Program-made: the position numbers and the translations under genes
Assembly (NCBI RefSeq): GCF_000214355.1
Contig: NC_015577.1
Coordinates: 1,692,453-1,756,452 of the forward strand
Source: Leadbettera azotonutricia ZAS-9
GTDB taxonomy: Bacteria; Spirochaetota; Spirochaetia; Treponematales; Breznakiellaceae
Direction of reading: 5' to 3'
DNA length: 64,000 nt
Shown here: one piece after another, positions 2,110-12,048 of the stretch
Layout: every line of letters starts with the position of its first letter
How positions within the stretch are numbered: position 1 is the first letter of the stretch
Notes under the pieces: generated by a model
What the model was told of the DNA's origin: nothing
What the model saw: the letters and a program-made list of their open reading frames with translations, nothing else
Database searches by the model: none

Positions 2110-2129
2110 AGAGCCGATTTCAAAATCAA
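2110..2129. repeat. Left terminal inverted repeat of the IS
   Basis: Reads AGAGCCGATTTCAAAATCAA and is the exact reverse complement of 3309-3328. Base identity stops abruptly on both sides. Confidence 0.85.
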
Positions 2130-3235
2130 GCCAAACAAGGCTTAAAGTAGTGTAGATATTTTTGCGCCGCCAAACATAGTACGGCAATCATCAAGACAAA
2201 AGTAACCTTGCGATTGCCTTTGACATATATTTTCCCCGGTATCAAATTGTCTTTTAAATGCGAATAGGCCCTTTCGACTGTCGTGCGAATTTTATACCGT
2301 TCCTGTTTCGCCGGATCAAGGGGTGCGCAGATTTTATCATTTCTGGAATTGGGATCGATAACGGGAACCCGGCGGTGACGGCGTATAAATTGTTTAATGT
2401 CTTTTGCGTCATAGGCCGCATCCATTACAGAATATAAATGTCTGACTTTCCCCATGGTCATTTTCTCCAGCAGTATCGCCGCCTGGCTGTCATGGACATT
2501 TGCCCCGCTTACAAAGGCGCTTACCGGAAACCCTGTGTCGGTAACATCAAGATGCAATTTGTATCCTTTCCAATAACTCACCTTGCCCTGACTGTTTTTC
2601 TTGCAGCCCCAGGCGCATTCCTGGTTTAATTCCCTCGTGATTTCAGAAATATCCTTTTTGGCCTGTTGCGCAAGAACGGTTGGTTCTTTTATCGTTTTTG
2701 GAGCGTCTTTGGGCCTTCTTTCCCGCTTTTTAAGCGCTTTTGGGACTGTTCCTTTGGTTTTCTCCTTCGGACTTTCCCGGGATTCTATCGCGGTTGAATC
2801 CCGACAGATATGGATAACCGGTAAATCTTTGTATGCCTGTTTTACTAATTCATCCAATATATCATTCAGTACATCCGCCTTACTGATATCGTTAAGACGC
2901 CGTGAAAATGTTGACCTGCTGGGGACTTTTTTAAATCCGCAGAGCTGGCGTAGATTGGGGTCTGACCGTAATGTTTCCACAAGCGCCTTCATGTTCGGTA
3001 TGCCAAAATGGTTCACCGCAAAAAAGGCCCGGAAGAAATTCATATAATCATACGCCTTCCTTCCGACACCCCGGTAGGTATGAATCAGGCGAGGAGAGCA
3101 GCTTTCTATGACTTGCAGTATTAAGATAAAGTTCCTTTGTTCGCCGCCTAAATGTTCCTCGAAAAACTGCTGTAATTCATGGAACCCTTCAAAAAGACCT
3201 TGTTTCCCGCCGACGATTTGTGTTATGCTCTTCAT
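2126..3235 (-). CDS. DDE transposase of IS4/IS5 superfamily
   Basis: 369 residues. An N-terminal InsH/DUF772-like region (about 1-125, with RNFILILQVIESC and PSRSTFSRRL) is followed by a DDE catalytic domain. Candidate catalytic residues are Asp in HICRDSTAIESRE (about 145), Asp in YSVMDAAYD (about 270) and Glu in TTVERAYSHLKD (about 325). A basic linker around 155-190 (KEKTKGTVPKALKKRERR) separates the first two blocks. Translation starts at the ATG at 3235 after a GGGAG site. The enzyme would cut and join DNA at the element's 20-bp ends. The exact IS family (IS5, IS1182 or related) cannot be fixed without a search. Confidence 0.88.
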   Translation of the reverse strand: MKSITQIVGGKQGLFEGFHELQQFFEEHLGGEQRNFILILQVIESCSPRLIHTYRGVGRKAYDYMNFFRAFFAVNHFGIPNMKALVETLRSDPNLRQLCGFKKVPSRSTFSRRLNDISKADVLNDILDELVKQAYKDLPVIHICRDSTAIESRESPKEKTKGTVPKALKKRERRPKDAPKTIKEPTVLAQQAKKDISEITRELNQECAWGCKKNSQGKVSYWKGYKLHLDVTDTGFPVSAFVSGANVHDSQAAILLEKMTMGKVRHLYSVMDAAYDAKDIKQFIRRHRRVPVIDPNSRNDKICAPLDPAKQERYKIRTTVERAYSHLKDNLIPGKIYVKGNRKVTFVLMIAVLCLAAQKYLHYFKPCLA

Positions 3236-3308: not shown

Positions 3309-3328
3309 TTGATTTTGAAATCGGCTCT
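3309..3328. repeat. Right terminal inverted repeat of the IS
   Basis: Reads TTGATTTTGAAATCGGCTCT, the exact reverse complement of 2110-2129. Confidence 0.85.
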
Positions 3329-3360
3329 TGTAATAAAATAATTCAAAGGAGCATATTATT

Positions 3361-3786
3361 GTGGCCGGTATTGTAAAAGACCTCATGGATGCAGATAAAG
3401 TCAATGAATTATATGAAGATATTGAATCGGTAAAAATATTAAACAGAAATTTCAGAAATCCGAAATTATCCCATACCTATGGTTCTAAAAAAATAGTTAA
3501 GAATAGGGAAGAAGAAAATTATTTTAATCAAAAAGAAAATCAATACGTCCAAATTTATGCATTTATTCGTGGCGAGGGGGTTAATACCCCGCCCCTTGGG
3601 GCGGTTAAAAAGGTATTAAGCCCCGAGTCCAATTCCTTAAGAGAACAACATACCTCGCGGCTTGCCGCGGGGTTGTTGATTTTATGTAAAAATGTAACAG
3701 ACAAAAAAATTCTGGAAAGAAAAAGCACGGAAATTATAAAGAAAAAGAGCGCACAAGCCCTTCAAAATAGTGCTTTCCCGCCCTAG
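3361..3786 (+). CDS. Small hypothetical protein carrying an in-frame repeat
   Basis: A 141-codon frame from GTG with a good AAGGAG site at 3346-3351. The first 67 residues look like an ordinary AT-rich gene start (MAGIVKDLMDADKVNELYED). From codon 68 the frame runs through the 121-bp repeat at 3562-3682, giving a peptide with NTPPLGAVKKV and SRLAAGLLI that has no relation to the start. The last 34 residues are lysine-rich and antisense to the end of the neighbouring pseudogene. The most likely history is a short gene truncated or rewritten by repeat insertion, as with Rickettsia palindromic elements. No function is recognised, and it may not be expressed. Confidence 0.35.
   Translation: MAGIVKDLMDADKVNELYEDIESVKILNRNFRNPKLSHTYGSKKIVKNREEENYFNQKENQYVQIYAFIRGEGVNTPPLGAVKKVLSPESNSLREQHTSRLAAGLLILCKNVTDKKILERKSTEIIKKKSAQALQNSAFPP
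3562..3682. repeat. 121-bp structured dispersed repeat, copy 1
   Basis: Identical over 121 bases to 9825-9945. It contains two strong stem-loops. The first is nested: TTAATACC pairs with GGTATTAA, enclosing CCGCCCC-TT-GGGGCGG. In the second, CCTCGCGGC-TT-GCCGCGGGG is extended by AACAA/TTGTT. This copy lies inside an open reading frame. Confidence 0.85.
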
Positions 3787-4442
3787 AAATCCGTTTTTGG
3801 TACAGTCTGCCTTTGTACTCAAACTGAAATTTGTCGCAAACCACATCAAAGGACATGGAAACAAGAAGCCGGTTATCCGCATCGTACCAGAGAATTTCAC
3901 CCTGAATGCCAAGCCCTTTAACAATAGACGCATTAAAAATGCTGATAAAACCGGCTATGCTTTTTATTTCCGTCATTTTGGTAATTTCTATGGTACGCTC
4001 ATTGCAAACGCCCATAATCATATTTCCCTCCACTTTCCAGTCATGGATGGAGAGGGTTATTTTTTTTGTTTTGAGCAGCAGTTCTTTTTTATAGTTCATG
4101 AGTATCCTTTTAGCGGGCCTTAAACCTGCTTTGGCTGTAAAGGCTTCCACATCGGCGGTGTAGCTGGCGAAAGTGTAATCCAGCGTTTCGCCGAATAGTG
4201 CATAGCGGCTGCTCTTTTCTTCATTATAGACGGTAAAAATTCCTCGGTATATTCGGGATACGCTCCGCCTTTAAGCCAGGAACGGACTTCGGCCCAAAGG
4301 TCTCGTGCTCGGGGATAATGGCTAAATTCCGCGCCTCCTTTGGTTTTGCAATAAAATAGAGCTTTTTGCCGCCGGGTAATTTACGGTGTATGTTCCCATC
4401 ACGATCGTCTATCAATAGTTCTACAAAGTCTTTCCTGGTCAT
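3734..4442 (-). pseudogene. Hypothetical gene broken by two frameshifts
   Basis: Three minus-strand frames join into one plausible protein of about 235 residues. Frame one starts at ATG 4442 after a GGAGG site (MTRKDFVELLIDDRDGNIHR...). A second frame takes over near 4335 and reads GGAEFSHYPRARDLWAEVRSW and then AYPEYTEEFLPSIM. A third takes over near 4215 and reads EEKSSRYALFGETLDYTFASY before continuing into the final 138 codons (KKELLLKTKKITLSIHDWKV ... GLVRSFSL). Both shifts are the same sign and fall at or beside short A-rich runs. Each segment alone ends abruptly, whereas the joined product has even, coding-like composition. Family not recognised. A real pseudogene or two sequencing errors would look the same. 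Confidence 0.6.
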
Positions 4443-4513
4443 AAACGCCTCCTTATGGCTCCATGTGTCATTATACATGATTTTTAAGCTCCGTGTCAAA
4501 AATGATCGAAGTA

Positions 4514-4542
4514 TTGAATTGATAAAATAAATTCGGTATAAT
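4514..4542 (+). promoter_or_regulatory. Promoter of the WGR/WG-repeat operon
   Basis: TTGAAT at 4514-4519 and TATAAT at 4537-4542 with a 17-base spacer. Transcription would start near 4549, upstream of the AAGGAG site at 4575-4580. Confidence 0.65.
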
Positions 4543-4585
4543 GCTCCGATCCCGTTTAAAGGATGAGGATTCACAAGGAGCTTAT

Positions 4586-5398
4586 ATGAAGCGTTATTTT
4601 ACCTACAGGGATGAAAAATCCGACAAGTTTTGGGTTATCGAAACCAACGAAGACGAGATGATTATTCTTTACGGCAAGAGTTATGATAGAGCGAATGGTT
4701 ACAGTAAAATGAACCCTAAACTTTGTTCGGCCGGTACAAAGACAGGAAAACTTTTCGACACCGAAGCAGAATGTGCAAAAGAGGTGGAAAAGGCTATTGC
4801 CAAAAAAATTAAAGACGGATATTCGGAACAGGAAGAAGTGTTTATCAATCTGTATAACGAAATTAAATACCTCCACCATCACAAAGAAAATTCGATATTG
4901 CCTCAGGTGCTGGCGGAGCTGGACAAGCGGGATAAACCGCTGCGGGTAAACTACGGGATTGCAGACCTTGTGTGGAGTTTGTTTTCGGCTTTTTATTTCA
5001 GGGTTGAGTGTCACGGCGAAGTAAAATTCGATGCCATCGCTGATTTTGCCTACCGCCTTCCCAAACTGGAGGGCGCCGATGATAAGACGGCGAATGATCT
5101 TGTAAGCCTTTACGGATACGGCCTGCGGGTTGCTGCCATTCAGAACGATGAAAAGCTGGACAGTTTTATCCGCAGCCATGTTCCCTCAGAAACTGAAAAC
5201 AGCCAGCTTGCTATAGGACTGGCCTATTCCGCAGCCCGGTGGAACCGGAAAGACGAAATCGAAAAATACGTGATGGTCGAAATTAACGACAGAAACGCGT
5301 TGTATATGGGCTGCCGTCCCAAGACGGAAAAATTCAGGCTGGAAGCTTTCTTTAAACCCTATCTGGACATTTTGGCGGAGTGCGACAAAAAGCGATAA
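4586..5398 (+). CDS. WGR-domain protein
   Basis: 270 residues from the ATG at 4586, chosen because AAGGAG lies five bases upstream; an earlier in-frame start has no such site. Residues 1-80 resemble a WGR domain (MKRYFTYRDEKSDKFWVIE, YGKSYDRANGY, FDTEAECAKEVEKAIAKKIKDGY), a nucleic-acid or protein-binding module found in PARPs and in bacterial MolR-like proteins. Here it has the YGK/G variant rather than the textbook WGR triplet. Residues 90-270 are helical with no recognised domain. It begins a likely operon: the WG-repeat gene follows after 58 bases and a kinase-like gene follows that. The composition looks like the backbone rather than the flanking IS DNA. Confidence 0.75.
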   Translation: MKRYFTYRDEKSDKFWVIETNEDEMIILYGKSYDRANGYSKMNPKLCSAGTKTGKLFDTEAECAKEVEKAIAKKIKDGYSEQEEVFINLYNEIKYLHHHKENSILPQVLAELDKRDKPLRVNYGIADLVWSLFSAFYFRVECHGEVKFDAIADFAYRLPKLEGADDKTANDLVSLYGYGLRVAAIQNDEKLDSFIRSHVPSETENSQLAIGLAYSAARWNRKDEIEKYVMVEINDRNALYMGCRPKTEKFRLEAFFKPYLDILAECDKKR

Positions 5399-5456
5399 TA
5401 ACTGCGCCATGCATCTCTGGTAATTAAATGAACACTGAAGAAATAAGGAGCTTTCC

Positions 5457-8400
5457 ATGGAACTCTATCCCTTTGATGACGCTCGTCCTTTTACCAAGGC
5501 GGGTCCGGGTCTGCCCGCGCTTGCACGGGTGGAAAAAGATAAACGCTGGGGCTATATCAATACCAAGGGCGAGATGCCCATACCTCTTCAATTTGAAGTT
5601 GCGGGCCCCTTCTCCGAAGGGCTTGCGCCGGTCATGTTAAACGGCGCCTGGGGTTATATCAATACCGATGGAAAACTTGCGGTGGAGCCGGATCTTGACT
5701 GGGCGGGGCGTTTTTCCTGCGGCCTTGGATCGGTAAAGAACCGGAGCAAATATTATTTTATACGCTCCGATGGGAAACCCGCCTTTGAAGGACGCTTTGA
5801 CGACGCCAACCCCTTCTCCGAGGGATTGGCCGCAGTGGTGGTGGATAACAAACTTGGGTTCATTGACACCGATGGAAAAACGGTAATCGGATTTCAATAT
5901 AAGAATGATGACTGGCTGGAGGATCGCCACGATTTTAAAGAAGGCTTCGCCATTGTCCAGGCAGAAGACGGAACCGTTATGTATATCGATAAAAGCGGCA
6001 AAGCCCTTTGGAGCGACCGCAAAGAGGTGAATAATGTTTCATCCTTTTCCCAGGGGCTTGCGGCGGTCAATCTAAAGGGTAAGGGCTGGGGCTTTATCAA
6101 CACCAGCGGTGAAATCGCCATACCCTGCGCATATGAAGAAGCGGCTTCCTTTTCTGACGGCCTTGCCTGGGTGGAAAAACACTATACCCGTTATGTGATA
6201 GACCAGACAGGAAAAGAGCTGCTTGAATCTTACGCGGGTTCATTTTCCGAGGGGCTTGCTTTTAATAAAGGTGATGGCTTTATCGACAAGAGCGGGGCTG
6301 TCGTTCTTCCCCTGGAGGACATCGAAGCCAAAGCATTTGCGGAGGGTTTTGCCGTAGTCAAAGAGGATAAAAAATATGGCTATATAGACAAAACCGGAAA
6401 GCCCCTGGACTGCGTTGTGCGTGTCGCCGAAAAGCCCGCGGACGATACAGATGATGCCGATGCCTTTATCTTTGAATCAATTAACCATATTGCCGAAGAA
6501 AGGGCGGCGGTAAAGCTGGACGGTAAATACGCTTTTCTGGATACTTCGGGTCTGGGCCCCGCAGGCAGGTTTATCACGCCCTTCATGTACAAAAGTGCAT
6601 CGGCCTTTTCCGAAGGGCTTGCCTCCGTAAAAATAGACAAACAGCGCATCTTTATCGATCCCGAGGGCAAGGAAGTCTTTACTCTGGAAGGACGATCCTC
6701 CGATGAATTTGTGGAAGGCATGCTGCGGGTGTACGGGGACTCAGGCGACGGCTTTGTTGGCAGGAGCGGAAAAATAACCGTCCCCTGTATCTATGATATG
6801 ACCAGCAATTTTTCCTGCGGACTTGCGGCGGTACAAAAGGGGAAAGACTGGGGTTTCGTCAACAAAAAGGGGGAAATTGCAATCCCCGCCGTTTATAAAG
6901 GGGTCTGGAATTTTTCCGAAGGGTTCGCCGCGGTGGATACGGGGAAGAAAGGCAAGGGCTTTATCGACACCACAGGAAAGCTCGTTTTTAAGGCAGACTT
7001 TGACGCCGCCCATGGTTTCTTTCAGGACAGGGCGGGAATCAGTAAAGATGATAAATGGGCCGTCATAGACAAGACAGGGAAACTGCTCACCGGCTACGAG
7101 TTTGACTCATTCGAAAATTACAGTGAAGGACGCGCCCTTGTTTCTCACGGTGACTGGTACGGATATATCGATGTAGACTGCAAAGTCGTCATACCCTTTG
7201 AATACAGCAAGGCCGAGAGCTTTAGCGAAGGGCTTGCGGCGGTCTACAAAGACGGCCGCTGGGGTTTTATCGACCAGTCGGGCAATACTGTTATCTCCTT
7301 TGACTATAACGATGCCGTGAGTTTTTCCTGCGGGCTTGCCATGGTGGAGAAGCGGGGGAAATACGGCTATATCAATACCAAGGGCGAAGCCGTTATCTCC
7401 CTGCGCTTTGCTGGCGCATCCAAGCGTTTTGTTTCCGGAATTGCGGCGGTGCAGAAGGGCGGCGCCTGGGGCTTCATTCGCAAAGACGGACAATTACTGC
7501 GTGATTATCAATTTATGACGATTGCTCCCGCTGATATTATTCTGAGCGACAGCGATATCCACAAGCTGGTACATTCCCATATCGCCAAAAAGGATATAGA
7601 GGCGTTTACGGAAGCCGTCAAAACTATTCCTTCCAGGGGGAAGCTTTCGCCCGACGCGATAGAAAGCCTTTCTATTAATACAGGCAATATCCTCATAGCC
7701 AACAGTAGGAAAAAAAATCCTCAGGAGGCTTTTCCGCTGATAGAGACCTTTGTCAAACTTTTCGGCACTGCGGAATATTTTCGTATCAATACCGCCAGTG
7801 TCTTTATTGATAACCTGAAAGGCCATGAGGATTTCTATCCCGAGATAAAAAAGGCATGGCTCTCAAGTCCGCTGAAAAAAGATGAGGCTCTCGGAGTTTA
7901 TTATCTTGCCAGGGATCTCGCCGATATTGGTTTGCACAAAGAGGCGATGGTTGAATTGCGCCGCGCAGTGGACGCGGGGCTGACCTATTGGGATGTAGAC
8001 CCTGATATTTTCCCCGAAGCGATACGCGTCGAACTTGAACCTATTAAAAATGAACTTGAAACGGTTTGGAAAAAACAAAAGGAAGAACGCGATAAAGATA
8101 TAGAAAAGGAAAAAGTTTTAACGGGCAGCTCCGAAACCTGGTGGCCCCTTGCCGCTGCCCTTGTTGGAGACGTAGACGAAAAGCGACGCGGACTGTTCAC
8201 GCAGCACCTTGCGCCTTGGGCTTTAACCGATGAATGCCGAGCGCTGCTTGACCGTCTTGCAGAACGCCTAACGGGAACGATCCTGAAAGATAACACCCTG
8301 TTCATCTTTTTTTTAAATGACAAAAAGAAGGGAGTGAAACTTACCCTTGCGCCGCCCCTGCAGTATATTTCGCCCAAGCTGGCGGATATTCCCCAAAGCT

Positions 8401-8765
8401 ATCTTGACCTTGTAACCCTTCACAACGGCGTTACGATAAATGATGGTGTACCCGAATACCCCCAGATCTGCGGCGTACAGGGCGGCGAGCCTCTGGCAAA
8501 CATTGACGATGAATGGGACGAAGCGCGGTACAAACCCTTTGCCGATGCGGGGCAGAACTGGTGGTTCTGGGATTACGTACAGAAGAACGCCCTGGGTGAA
8601 CCTCTTATGGTTTTTTGCGATCACGGTGAAGGCATCGAGGCCGCCCGTCCCATCCATGGACAGGACGTAACGGCTTTTGGCGTTGGTGGCCTTGTCCTAC
8701 GTTCCCTTGCCCGGACGGTTTTTAATACCGATGAAGACCTGAATTACAATTATTCGTGGGGATAA
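5457..8765 (+). CDS. Giant WG-repeat protein with SMI1/KNR4-like C-terminus
   Basis: 1,102 residues, ATG at 5457 after AAGGAG. Residues about 15-690 consist of roughly 19 WG (KWG) repeats of about 33 residues with cores such as WGYINTKGE, WGFIDQSGN and YGYIDKTGK alternating with FSEGLAAV. These repeats fold into beta-propeller-like scaffolds and are common in Leptospira and treponemes. There is no signal peptide, so it is likely cytoplasmic. Residues about 700-880 are helical. The C-terminal 200 residues (ISPKLADIPQSYLDLVTLHNG, then WWFWDY, then LMVFCDHGEGIEA) resemble the SUKH (SMI1/KNR4) superfamily, whose members often act as immunity or partner-binding proteins. The kinase-like gene follows almost directly. 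Repeats are sure; the SMI1 assignment is moderate. Confidence 0.88.
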   Translation: MELYPFDDARPFTKAGPGLPALARVEKDKRWGYINTKGEMPIPLQFEVAGPFSEGLAPVMLNGAWGYINTDGKLAVEPDLDWAGRFSCGLGSVKNRSKYYFIRSDGKPAFEGRFDDANPFSEGLAAVVVDNKLGFIDTDGKTVIGFQYKNDDWLEDRHDFKEGFAIVQAEDGTVMYIDKSGKALWSDRKEVNNVSSFSQGLAAVNLKGKGWGFINTSGEIAIPCAYEEAASFSDGLAWVEKHYTRYVIDQTGKELLESYAGSFSEGLAFNKGDGFIDKSGAVVLPLEDIEAKAFAEGFAVVKEDKKYGYIDKTGKPLDCVVRVAEKPADDTDDADAFIFESINHIAEERAAVKLDGKYAFLDTSGLGPAGRFITPFMYKSASAFSEGLASVKIDKQRIFIDPEGKEVFTLEGRSSDEFVEGMLRVYGDSGDGFVGRSGKITVPCIYDMTSNFSCGLAAVQKGKDWGFVNKKGEIAIPAVYKGVWNFSEGFAAVDTGKKGKGFIDTTGKLVFKADFDAAHGFFQDRAGISKDDKWAVIDKTGKLLTGYEFDSFENYSEGRALVSHGDWYGYIDVDCKVVIPFEYSKAESFSEGLAAVYKDGRWGFIDQSGNTVISFDYNDAVSFSCGLAMVEKRGKYGYINTKGEAVISLRFAGASKRFVSGIAAVQKGGAWGFIRKDGQLLRDYQFMTIAPADIILSDSDIHKLVHSHIAKKDIEAFTEAVKTIPSRGKLSPDAIESLSINTGNILIANSRKKNPQEAFPLIETFVKLFGTAEYFRINTASVFIDNLKGHEDFYPEIKKAWLSSPLKKDEALGVYYLARDLADIGLHKEAMVELRRAVDAGLTYWDVDPDIFPEAIRVELEPIKNELETVWKKQKEERDKDIEKEKVLTGSSETWWPLAAALVGDVDEKRRGLFTQHLAPWALTDECRALLDRLAERLTGTILKDNTLFIFFLNDKKKGVKLTLAPPLQYISPKLADIPQSYLDLVTLHNGVTINDGVPEYPQICGVQGGEPLANIDDEWDEARYKPFADAGQNWWFWDYVQKNALGEPLMVFCDHGEGIEAARPIHGQDVTAFGVGGLVLRSLARTVFNTDEDLNYNYSWG

Positions 8766-8770
8766 GCGCA

Positions 8771-9709
8771 GTGCGTATTCATATCTGCGGCCCCGCAGGC
8801 TGCGGGGCAACAACCCTGGGGCGGCATCTTGCGGAATCCCTTATGCTGCCCTATTTTGACAGCGATGATTTTTCCTGGGAAAAAACAGATCCGCCCTTTA
8901 CAAAAGCAATAGAAATGCCTGAACGTTCTAGGCTATTGCTCAAAGCACTGGACGGAAATAGTTCCTTTGTTTTAAGCGATTCCGTACTTGGCTGGGACAA
9001 AGCCTTCCTTGAACCGAAACGTTTTGACCTTGTGATATACAAATATGTTCCTCCCGATATACGTTTAGCCCGTCTGCAAAAGCGTGCGGAAGCGCTGTAC
9101 GGCAGCCGGATCAAAGAAGGCGGCGATATGTTTGAAATTCACCGCCGTCTGCTTGCCTGGGCCGAAAGTTACGAAAGTGGCGGCATGGACGACCGCAGCA
9201 TTACAAGCGAGGAGCATTTTCTCGCTCAGCTTTCCTGTCCGGTCATGCGGATTGGAAGCGAAGAAAACCCCGAAAAAGAAGCGGCTGATGTACTGACCCT
9301 GCTCCCTCTTTATCATTATGAAGGAAAAAATACACATATCCCGCAAAAACATTTTCCTTCTTTTCGTAAATTCATACCAGCCTTTTTTCAGCGCCTTTAC
9401 CGGCGGAGCCATGCCGCCGACATAGACCTCTGGAACATGGATGTTCATCTTGCCCGGATCATACTCCCCAAACTTAATAGTTTTCGTGAGCAGGAATTTG
9501 ACGGCTATCCCGGCGAATTGGGGAGCCTTGAAGCCTGGCTTGCGGCGCTGGACGAAATGATCTACGCAATGGAATGGAAAATCCGGGACTATCAGGGAAA
9601 TACCACGCCCTTTAAATTGAGCTTTGCCCCCGACACAACCGAAGAAGAAGCCCGGGCCCAGAGGGGCTTTGAATTATTCGGCAGATATTTTAACTGGCTT
9701 TGGAATTAA
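8771..9709 (+). CDS. P-loop NTPase/kinase-like protein with extra C-terminal domain
   Basis: 312 residues from GTG 8771 (an in-frame GTG at 8756 has no ribosome site, whereas GGGGA precedes 8771). Residues 1-170 resemble adenylate-kinase-like AAA_18 proteins: RIHICGPAGCGATTLGRHLA, then LPYFDSDDFSW as the usual substrate Asp motif, and RLQKRAEALYG as a lid-like basic helix. The P-loop lysine is replaced by alanine (GCGATT), so ATP binding may be altered. Residues 190-312 form a separate helical domain (DIDLWNMDVHLARIILPKL, ALDEMIYAMEW) not recognised. It is five bases downstream of the WG-repeat gene and surely co-translated with it. Confidence 0.75.
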   Translation: MRIHICGPAGCGATTLGRHLAESLMLPYFDSDDFSWEKTDPPFTKAIEMPERSRLLLKALDGNSSFVLSDSVLGWDKAFLEPKRFDLVIYKYVPPDIRLARLQKRAEALYGSRIKEGGDMFEIHRRLLAWAESYESGGMDDRSITSEEHFLAQLSCPVMRIGSEENPEKEAADVLTLLPLYHYEGKNTHIPQKHFPSFRKFIPAFFQRLYRRSHAADIDLWNMDVHLARIILPKLNSFREQEFDGYPGELGSLEAWLAALDEMIYAMEWKIRDYQGNTTPFKLSFAPDTTEEEARAQRGFELFGRYFNWLWN

Positions 9710-9721
9710 GCGTACTATTAG

Positions 9722-9751
9722 GCGTATAGCTTGTTAGGCGCAAGTTTACGC
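9722..9751 (+). terminator. Possible hairpin after the WGR operon
   Basis: GCGTA (9722-9726) pairs with TACGC (9747-9751) and CTTG with CAAG inside it, twelve bases after the operon's last stop. No T-run follows, so intrinsic termination is doubtful. Confidence 0.25.
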
Positions 9752-9824
9752 TGAATATATTTGAAAAATAAAAAAATATAGTTTTTACAATATATTATTT
9801 ACAATGTAACAGTTGTTTGATATT

Positions 9825-9945
9825 TTTATTCGTGGCGAGGGGGTTAATACCCCGCCCCTTGGGGCGGTTAAAAAGGTATTAAGCCCCGAGTCCAATTCCT
9901 TAAGAGAACAACATACCTCGCGGCTTGCCGCGGGGTTGTTGATTT
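9825..9945. repeat. 121-bp structured dispersed repeat, copy 2
   Basis: Identical to 3562-3682 and in the same orientation. It lies in the AT-rich gap 9710-10015 between convergent genes. That gap holds nothing else recognisable. Confidence 0.85.
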
Positions 9946-10015: not shown

Positions 10016-12010
10016 TCAATATATAAGAAAAACACTATATAGACTATAGGATAAAACAAATTTTCTGTTTTTAATTAAAATGCCCAACTTTTTTACGTTC
10101 AGGTTTTTTTGCCAATAGGAAAATTCTTCGTAAAAATCTTTAAAAGCTTTTTCTTGGGTATCGCCGTAACCGTCTCCCCAGCCATAGACACTGACACACC
10201 AGGGTTCGACTTCATCGGAAAAAACATTAAAGACATCAGTACGGATTTCCGCTTTGACCAAAACTTTGTGACCAAGGAAGGGCAATGTCAATTCCTTATA
10301 GGAATGATGGATACCTTCGCGGCCTATTGACTGGTTAATTATCGTATATTTGCTTTCATCCATAGGAGGGGCCTTTGCATGGACGCTGTCGTCTCTATGG
10401 CCAAGGCGCAATGCGGTAAAAGGTATATTGACGGCGGCCCAATCCAGGAGAGCTTTTAGGGCTTCCTTTTCGTATTCTTTGCCGCTGGTATTTTCACGGG
10501 AACAAAAGTTCTGATCCAGTTCGTATTCTCCGCTGTCTATATGATAGAGGTTCACCAAACCCAAAAGCGCATAGTCCGGCTTTCTCAAGACCGCCATGCG
10601 GAGACTTTTCTTTCTGTTGAGGTCGTCAAGGGAGTGCTGTAAATACTGCAAGGCATTTTCCGAGTATGCGTAGGGCACCCCTCCGCCTATGGCTACTACG
10701 TGTTCCAACATCATTCCCAGTTCTATCAGGCTGATATAATTGCAGCCAAGGGGTTTTAGAAACAGCCGGCTGGTAGATAATGAAAGTTCCAGAAAGTTTA
10801 CAAAAAGGGGCCGCTCCTCTATAAGGCAGACTGCGGGATCGTATTTCCATGATGGTGTCTCTTCGCTTGTCAAATATTTTTCCACATTGGTATCAGAGGT
10901 ATGGTAAAAACAATGATGTTCCAGGTGGTAACCCCATTCATCGGTGATATCCGAAATATGGCGAAGGATTTTTCCTTCAATGTCGATGACGTATGCGCCT
11001 CTGGAAGAAAGGGCTATGAGGGAACTTTCGCCCTTGTCTTCGTAATTGTCCATGTCATAAAAAAGTTTGCCTTTTACTTCGCCATGTTCGTTGATGTCAA
11101 AAATATCCGTATCCAGAATCTTAAAAGGTTCCAGATAGCCCCGGTATTGGGATTTGAGCGATGCCGGAGCCTTGGCATCCGAAAGGCGGTAGAAAAGAAG
11201 CTGATGATATTGGTATGCCGCTTTTTCTTCTTCTTCCAGATCGGTGGTTTTATCGTCTGCGGCAATCACAAAGATATCGTCGCTTATAAAGGCGCATGGG
11301 CGATCCCAATTGTACCCGCCCTGAAAGTCAAGGGCATAGGCTGAGCTTTCCCCTTCCCTCAAAAAATCGTCCATCTTATATGCGGAAATTATATTAACCG
11401 GATGCCATACCCAGCCGTTGCTGAGAAAATAGTTCTGCTCAGGAGAGATGTGGATAAGGCTGTGAAAGTAATCGAAGCCGTCTGCGGCCTCTACCGCTTC
11501 GGCGGGATGCTGTGCAATGACTTCGCCGGTTTCAAGGTCCGTAATGTCGAGGCGGTTCCACTTGGTCTGATGGATTAAATGACCGCGCCCGCTTCCCTTG
11601 TGTACCCATTCGCCGGGGGTGTATATTTCAAGAAAGCCGATGGAGTAACTGGTTACCCTGGCCTCAGGGTTTTCTCGGGAGAAAGTGCGGACAGTGCCGT
11701 CACGGACATTCACCACCGCAGCGTTAAGGCCATAACGTTCGGAAACGCAGATATAGGGATAGCGGCAGTTGAGTTTAATTTCAAACGTGGGCGGCGGCAG
11801 TATAATGCCGTCCTTATTCGGTTTTGGCGGCTCGGGCATTTTGATATTGGGGATCTTTGCCGTCAAGACAAGAGTTTTGTCCATTTTGTCGTAATGGTAT
11901 AAACCCATGTCGGAGCAGAAAACCGCATATATAGCAGGACCATCGCAGGAGGGCTCTACGGCAAGTATTTTAAGCGGCAATCCGTCTTTCCCTTGTATAT
12001 CCAAACCCAT
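10016..12010 (-). CDS. Large hypothetical protein, beta-rich
   Basis: 664 residues from the ATG at 12010 (MGLDIQGKDGLPLK), which follows a GGCGGGGA site; an in-frame TTG seven codons upstream lacks one. No signal peptide or membrane helix. The first 380 residues contain repeated short strands ending in aromatic-Asp patterns (AIYAVFCSDMGLYHYD, RLDITDLETGEVIAQH, AYVIDIEGKILRHISDITDE) suggestive of a beta-propeller. The remainder is mixed alpha/beta, with VYGWGDGYGDTQEKAFKDFY near the end. The last 20 residues are AT-rich and hydrophobic, possibly because an original stop was lost. It follows the DUF4139 gene by 38 bases in the long minus-strand run. Function not recognised. Confidence 0.75.
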   Translation of the reverse strand: MGLDIQGKDGLPLKILAVEPSCDGPAIYAVFCSDMGLYHYDKMDKTLVLTAKIPNIKMPEPPKPNKDGIILPPPTFEIKLNCRYPYICVSERYGLNAAVVNVRDGTVRTFSRENPEARVTSYSIGFLEIYTPGEWVHKGSGRGHLIHQTKWNRLDITDLETGEVIAQHPAEAVEAADGFDYFHSLIHISPEQNYFLSNGWVWHPVNIISAYKMDDFLREGESSAYALDFQGGYNWDRPCAFISDDIFVIAADDKTTDLEEEEKAAYQYHQLLFYRLSDAKAPASLKSQYRGYLEPFKILDTDIFDINEHGEVKGKLFYDMDNYEDKGESSLIALSSRGAYVIDIEGKILRHISDITDEWGYHLEHHCFYHTSDTNVEKYLTSEETPSWKYDPAVCLIEERPLFVNFLELSLSTSRLFLKPLGCNYISLIELGMMLEHVVAIGGGVPYAYSENALQYLQHSLDDLNRKKSLRMAVLRKPDYALLGLVNLYHIDSGEYELDQNFCSRENTSGKEYEKEALKALLDWAAVNIPFTALRLGHRDDSVHAKAPPMDESKYTIINQSIGREGIHHSYKELTLPFLGHKVLVKAEIRTDVFNVFSDEVEPWCVSVYGWGDGYGDTQEKAFKDFYEEFSYWQKNLNVKKLGILIKNRKFVLSYSLYSVFLIY

Positions 12011-12048
12011 ATAGGTGTCCCCGCCAATCAAAAAATGCGAGTGCTCTT

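Follow-up and report, generated by a model that had tools for sequence, protein, structure and literature searches.

Systems with comparable components have been described in several contexts. MoxR-vWA ternary conflict systems combine TPR, HEAT and beta-propeller scaffolds with kinase domains carrying disrupted catalytic residues (Kaur et al. 2020, PMC7159879), and in polymorphic toxin systems the SUKH proteins form the immunity superfamily of greatest breadth (PMC3482391). In Deinococcus, the DR2173 and DRA0166 proteins rise upon DdrO depletion (PMC8533742). A yeh-type cluster with MoxR, VWA, SWIM and WGR genes is present also in Escherichia coli K-12, and in the literature we found no function reported for the yeh row. 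Here we consider three adjacent genes (gene 1, gene 2 and gene 3, together the trio) in a window of 64,000 nt, the whole stretch of DNA analysed, which comes from a spirochaete genome of 3.86 Mb.

Genes and domains of the trio

In the ORF listing of the window all three ORFs are present and intact, at the coordinates given for them in a preliminary description of this DNA. Gene 1 (4586–5398, plus strand) encodes a 270-aa WGR protein, gene 2 (5457–8765, plus strand) a 1,102-aa WG-repeat protein, and gene 3 (8771–9709, plus strand) a 312-aa kinase-like protein. The genes are, as described, tightly spaced, with intergenic gaps of 58 nt between genes 1 and 2 and 5 nt between genes 2 and 3, and Shine-Dalgarno-like AAGGAG or AGGAG is found ahead of the ATG in both gene 1 and gene 2. 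The start of gene 3 was set at GTG 8771, a better candidate than 8756, because its relatives start there. Tight same-strand spacing together with good ribosome-binding sites suggests co-translation of the trio, and the initial view of an accessory operon-like set is retained. The claim of one good promoter at 4514–4542 (plus strand) holds in part: this candidate sigma-70 site matches 10 of 12 positions and is plausible, but statistically it is weak and not special, the enrichment of sites of this kind being mild (14 observed vs 9.7 +/- 3.0 in shuffles). An opposing promoter lies next to it, a perfect 12/12 sigma-70-type promoter with an 18-nt spacer (4499–4470, minus strand), pointing away from the trio and preceding a small minus-strand ORF (4224–4574) to which no function is assigned.

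The product of gene 2 carries 19 WG repeats (5514–7508, plus strand; Pfam and motif positions), presumably blades of beta-propellers; they were counted as FID/YIN-type anchors from the motif list, with two added by eye (YAFLDTSG and YIDVDC), and the count is the same as that made previously for this 1,102-residue protein (Pfam WG_beta_rep, E 2.5e-139). A presumably helical linker (7509–8100, plus strand) has no family match and no relative in the upstream cluster, and is followed by a SUKH-like C-terminal domain (8151–8762, plus strand), identified via a Tenacibaculum homologue and a profile match to 27 SUKH-1 domains.

The earlier assignment of this C-terminus as SUKH-like stands at the level of profiles, but not at that of the Pfam threshold. 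SMI1_KNR4 scores 14.5 bits (E 0.056) against the C-terminus alone, below the Pfam cut-off of 25.4, whereas hhalign of the C-terminal family profile against the 27 SUKH-1 domains yields scores of 28–31 (E 1e-4 to 5e-4), above the best of 100 column shuffles (15.8) and the reversed profile (12.5–14.1), with E 2.5e-17 for the positive control. This set supersedes a first comparison with six poorly aligned SUKH sequences, where no signal was obtained. The P..Y, G..W..D and H motifs of the gene 2 C-terminus and of SUKH-1 are in register. Searches of solved structures with the domain and its family gave no SUKH match, a small SUKH-1 profile does retrieve known SUKH structures, and AlphaFold models of the domain with one or two input sequences have pLDDT 34. 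The sequence-profile comparison supports a remote relationship of the gene 2 C-terminus to SUKH.

Relatives of the domain were found as standalone proteins in Tenacibaculum ovolyticum (37% identity, E 4e-35) and in another spirochaete genome, at the N-terminus of a protein encoded on a Leptospira plasmid, and as further flavobacterial copies. In a second flavobacterial genome, WD-type propeller matches and a similar N-terminal region are combined in one gene, whose product weakly resembles the Leptospira protein (E 2e-4). Judging from these relatives, the gene 2 C-terminus is a domain of its own, standalone in Tenacibaculum and found with propeller-like regions in Leptospira and the second flavobacterial genome; standalone or propeller-joined in three lineages, it makes up a small unnamed family. 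At one locus (L063, 194–2109) a standalone SUKH-like gene has as a near neighbour a gene in which a similar domain is combined with WD-type propeller matches. Nothing was found in a scan of the genome collection with the gene 2 C-terminus alone or in five viral-contig scans, and the standalone SUKH-like protein of genome G141 has no match among plasmids and phages; the wider scans used short peptide patterns, with which relatives can be missed.

The first 178 residues of gene 3 are near the PRK06217 adenylate-kinase-like family (NCBIfam NF004861; E 1.3e-51, 174.6 bits, below the curated cut-off of 203), with a Pfam AAA_18 match just over its cut-off, and retain DD.W, R..R..R and other motifs common to PRK06217-type proteins. 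The variant P-loop GPAGCGATT (8789–8815, plus strand) has Ala in the usual place of Lys, as noted previously (GCA, 8807–8809). In the family alignment, Rhizobium, Deinococcus, Phyllobacterium and Cupriavidus relatives have Thr or Val at this position, and Lys is kept in three Spirochaetota relatives. A degenerate P-loop was considered and dropped, since non-spirochaete relatives are also without this Lys; by the alignment, the Lys-less P-loop is a trait of the wider family of gene 3 rather than decay. The last 130 residues (9317–9706, plus strand) match phage proteins and the phage family phrog_11543 (E 7.7e-9). Homology shows that gene 3 encodes a PRK06217-type, nucleotide-kinase-like P-loop protein with a phage-type domain attached. 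In another genome (G138, L041 6519–8387) a relative of the phage-type domain adjoins an RNA ligase gene.

It is improbable that gene 3 is a true housekeeping nucleoside or nucleotide kinase and the operon metabolic. The strong similarity to PRK06217-type proteins, with conserved DD.W and R..R..R motifs, is what such a role would predict, but the Walker A Lys is missing, gene 3 carries a fused phage-type domain, and neither gene 1 nor gene 2 has metabolic relatives.

The same phage-type domain, together with the SUKH-like end of gene 2 and the known toxin immunity of the SUKH superfamily (PMC3482391), might be seen as agreeing with the sensing or immunity module that the preliminary description had proposed. 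In such a module, the SUKH-like domain would neutralise a toxin or detect a phage protein and the WG propellers would form a display scaffold. The search for partners and for known systems did not bear out a stand-alone system of this kind. By annotation and by eye, no toxin gene was recognised next to the trio in the window or next to the inspected SUKH-like relatives, whose neighbours look unrelated to toxins. Against PADLOC-DB the trio gives no match to a defence system beyond a weak one to IetA in the P-loop (E 0.04), and it does not recur in the genomes surveyed below. An immunity role is possible but unsupported, and we consider it unlikely.

Distribution and mobile surroundings

The preliminary description had proposed a survey of gene neighbourhoods in other spirochaetes, taking a failure of the three genes to co-occur elsewhere as an argument against its module. 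In a sample of 393 Spirochaetota genomes, the source genome included, the trio was not found in any of the approximately 390 others, which within this sample counts against the module on the terms of that description. A single-sequence search of the 393 genomes with the gene 2 C-terminus gives a match in the source genome only, gene 1 matches outside it are short or partial and mostly confined to WGR, and gene 3 matches are to single domains. The parts of the trio are of known kinds, and their combination is unusual and unique within the sample.

A DDE transposase gene (2126–3235, minus strand; Pfam DUF772 and DDE_Tnp_1) with 30-nt inverted repeats at 2100–2129 and 3309–3338 lies upstream of the trio, and two 100% identical copies of a 121-nt repeat, at 3562–3682 and 9825–9945, bracket it (3562–9945), the right copy containing a terminator-like hairpin. 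This repeat family has 27 matches genome-wide, nine of them near-identical, and gain or loss of the trio by recombination between the copies is possible. Of the location between insertion elements suggested earlier, the upstream transposase and the flanking repeats are confirmed, but no transposase was identified immediately downstream. The product of 10016–12031 (minus strand) is 671 aa long; a GNAT-like match in its C-terminal half falls just short of the cut-off, and its N-terminal half is propeller-like by eye.

These observations bear on the possibility that three unrelated accessory genes with separate jobs came together by chance in an insertion-rich, repeat-flanked stretch and form no joint system. 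The lack of co-occurrence in the sampled Spirochaetota, the identical 121-nt repeats and the nearby transposase agree with it, as do the standalone occurrence of the SUKH-like domain elsewhere and the unrelated plasmid contexts in which the kinase relatives of gene 3 are found. The tight same-strand spacing of the trio and the relationship of gene 1 to genes of the upstream island, considered in the next section, do not. We regard chance grouping as a serious possibility, nearly as likely as the reading that we prefer.

Upstream island and interpretation of the trio

Just before the window, MoxR AAA+, DUF5682, VWA and SWIM genes stand in a row, in the order of K-12 yehL-yehM-yehP-yehQ, with identities of 47% to YehL, 25% to YehM, 40% to YehP and 27% to YehQ (partial). 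The island, which ends approximately 9 kb upstream of gene 1, also holds WGR, WGR-DUF4132, ankyrin and TPR (tetratricopeptide) proteins and three large paralogues. The row that marks a yeh-type MoxR cluster is found in this island and not in the trio itself. Its MoxR protein has a sub-threshold bpMoxR match.

On the minus strand of the island (L039 13385–13405, genome position approximately 1668390), a 721-aa HEAT/WGR-type ORF overlaps a 651-aa WGR-DUF4132 ORF, and at CAA AAA AAG in the overlap a –1 shift on A_AAA_AAG carries the WGR domain on into the second ORF. This may reflect programmed frameshifting, or a YehI/MolR-like gene may have been split by an indel; RNA folding behind the candidate site gave no unusual structure.

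The island is linked to the trio via gene 1. The WGR module attributed to gene 1 is recovered by Pfam (E 6e-6, above the cut-off; approximately aa 1–84), and is followed by a 186-aa region common to two full-length small WGR proteins of the island (genome positions 1673535 and 1672411; 42% and 29% identity). The similarity extends through the C-terminal part of gene 1 (phmmer E 1e-41 and 2e-10), so the comparison shows gene 1 to be a duplicated member of the small WGR family of the island. With E. coli YehF, gene 1 has only WGR in common, and it has no match in plasmid sequences.

As gene 1 copies island WGR genes and no sampled relative has the whole set, we read the trio as a local add-on to the island: an accessory, lineage-restricted cassette at the edge of a yeh-type island, with a probability of about 0.4. 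Counting for this reading are the homology of the island proteins to YehL, YehM, YehP and YehQ in K-12 order, the gene 1 paralogues matching into the C-terminal part, and the TPR and ankyrin proteins and three large paralogues crowding the same stretch. The recurrence of the SUKH-like domain with propeller-like regions in Leptospira and the second flavobacterial genome also counts for it, as does, by analogy, the presence of comparable scaffolds and disrupted kinases in MoxR-vWA conflict systems (PMC7159879). Counting against it, the trio is on the strand opposite to the MoxR operon and approximately 9 kb away, with two transposase genes and other genes in between, and two same-family genomes with MoxR and DUF5682 genes (G416 and G400, a VWA gene being also in view in one of them) have no relatives of genes 1–3 in the stretches fetched.

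In such a cassette, which would act as an adaptor and in client recognition, the WGR module would tie the trio to nucleic acid or to other WGR proteins of the island, the gene 2 scaffold with its SUKH-like end would most likely recognise protein partners, and gene 3 would contribute a step that depends on nucleotides or modifies a substrate. In this proposal the scaffold would present its clients to the MoxR-VWA pair of chaperones. A more specific proposal, where the WG scaffold and SUKH-like reader form a client receptor for yeh-type MoxR-VWA chaperones and receptors are swapped as repeat-flanked cassettes, is in our opinion a long shot; if true, the island would be a system for sensing or conflict with exchangeable receptors.

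Comparison with known systems

The MoxR-vWA conflict systems resemble the island in having a MoxR-VWA pair near scaffolding repeats and propellers, but their description makes no mention of DUF5682, DUF4132, SUKH or WG repeats (PMC7159879), and the VWA protein of the island has no propeller match. With the SUKH superfamily (SMI1/KNR4) the gene 2 C-terminus shares remote profile similarity, but differs in its larger N-terminal part, its fusion to WG repeats and its score below the Pfam cut-off. The Deinococcus proteins DR2173 and DRA0166 are likewise WGR and DUF4132 proteins with no role assigned, with no link to WG repeats reported (PMC8533742). Gene 3 is below the curated cut-off of the PRK06217 family (NF004861), has Ala in the P-loop and an added phage-type C-terminal domain, but its entire N-terminal domain aligns with the family. 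The E. coli cluster yehF-yehH(molR)-yehI-yehL-yehM-yehP-yehQ has, over the stretch annotated, no gene of the WG-repeat or kinase-like kind, but its MoxR, DUF5682, VWA and SWIM genes are ordered as in the island, and it has WGR and WGR-DUF4132 proteins as well. In the spirochaete island, the WGR proteins of the yeh-type cluster seem to multiply and to travel with WG/SUKH-like and kinase-like partners, and this gives concrete interactions to test for the yeh-type cluster.
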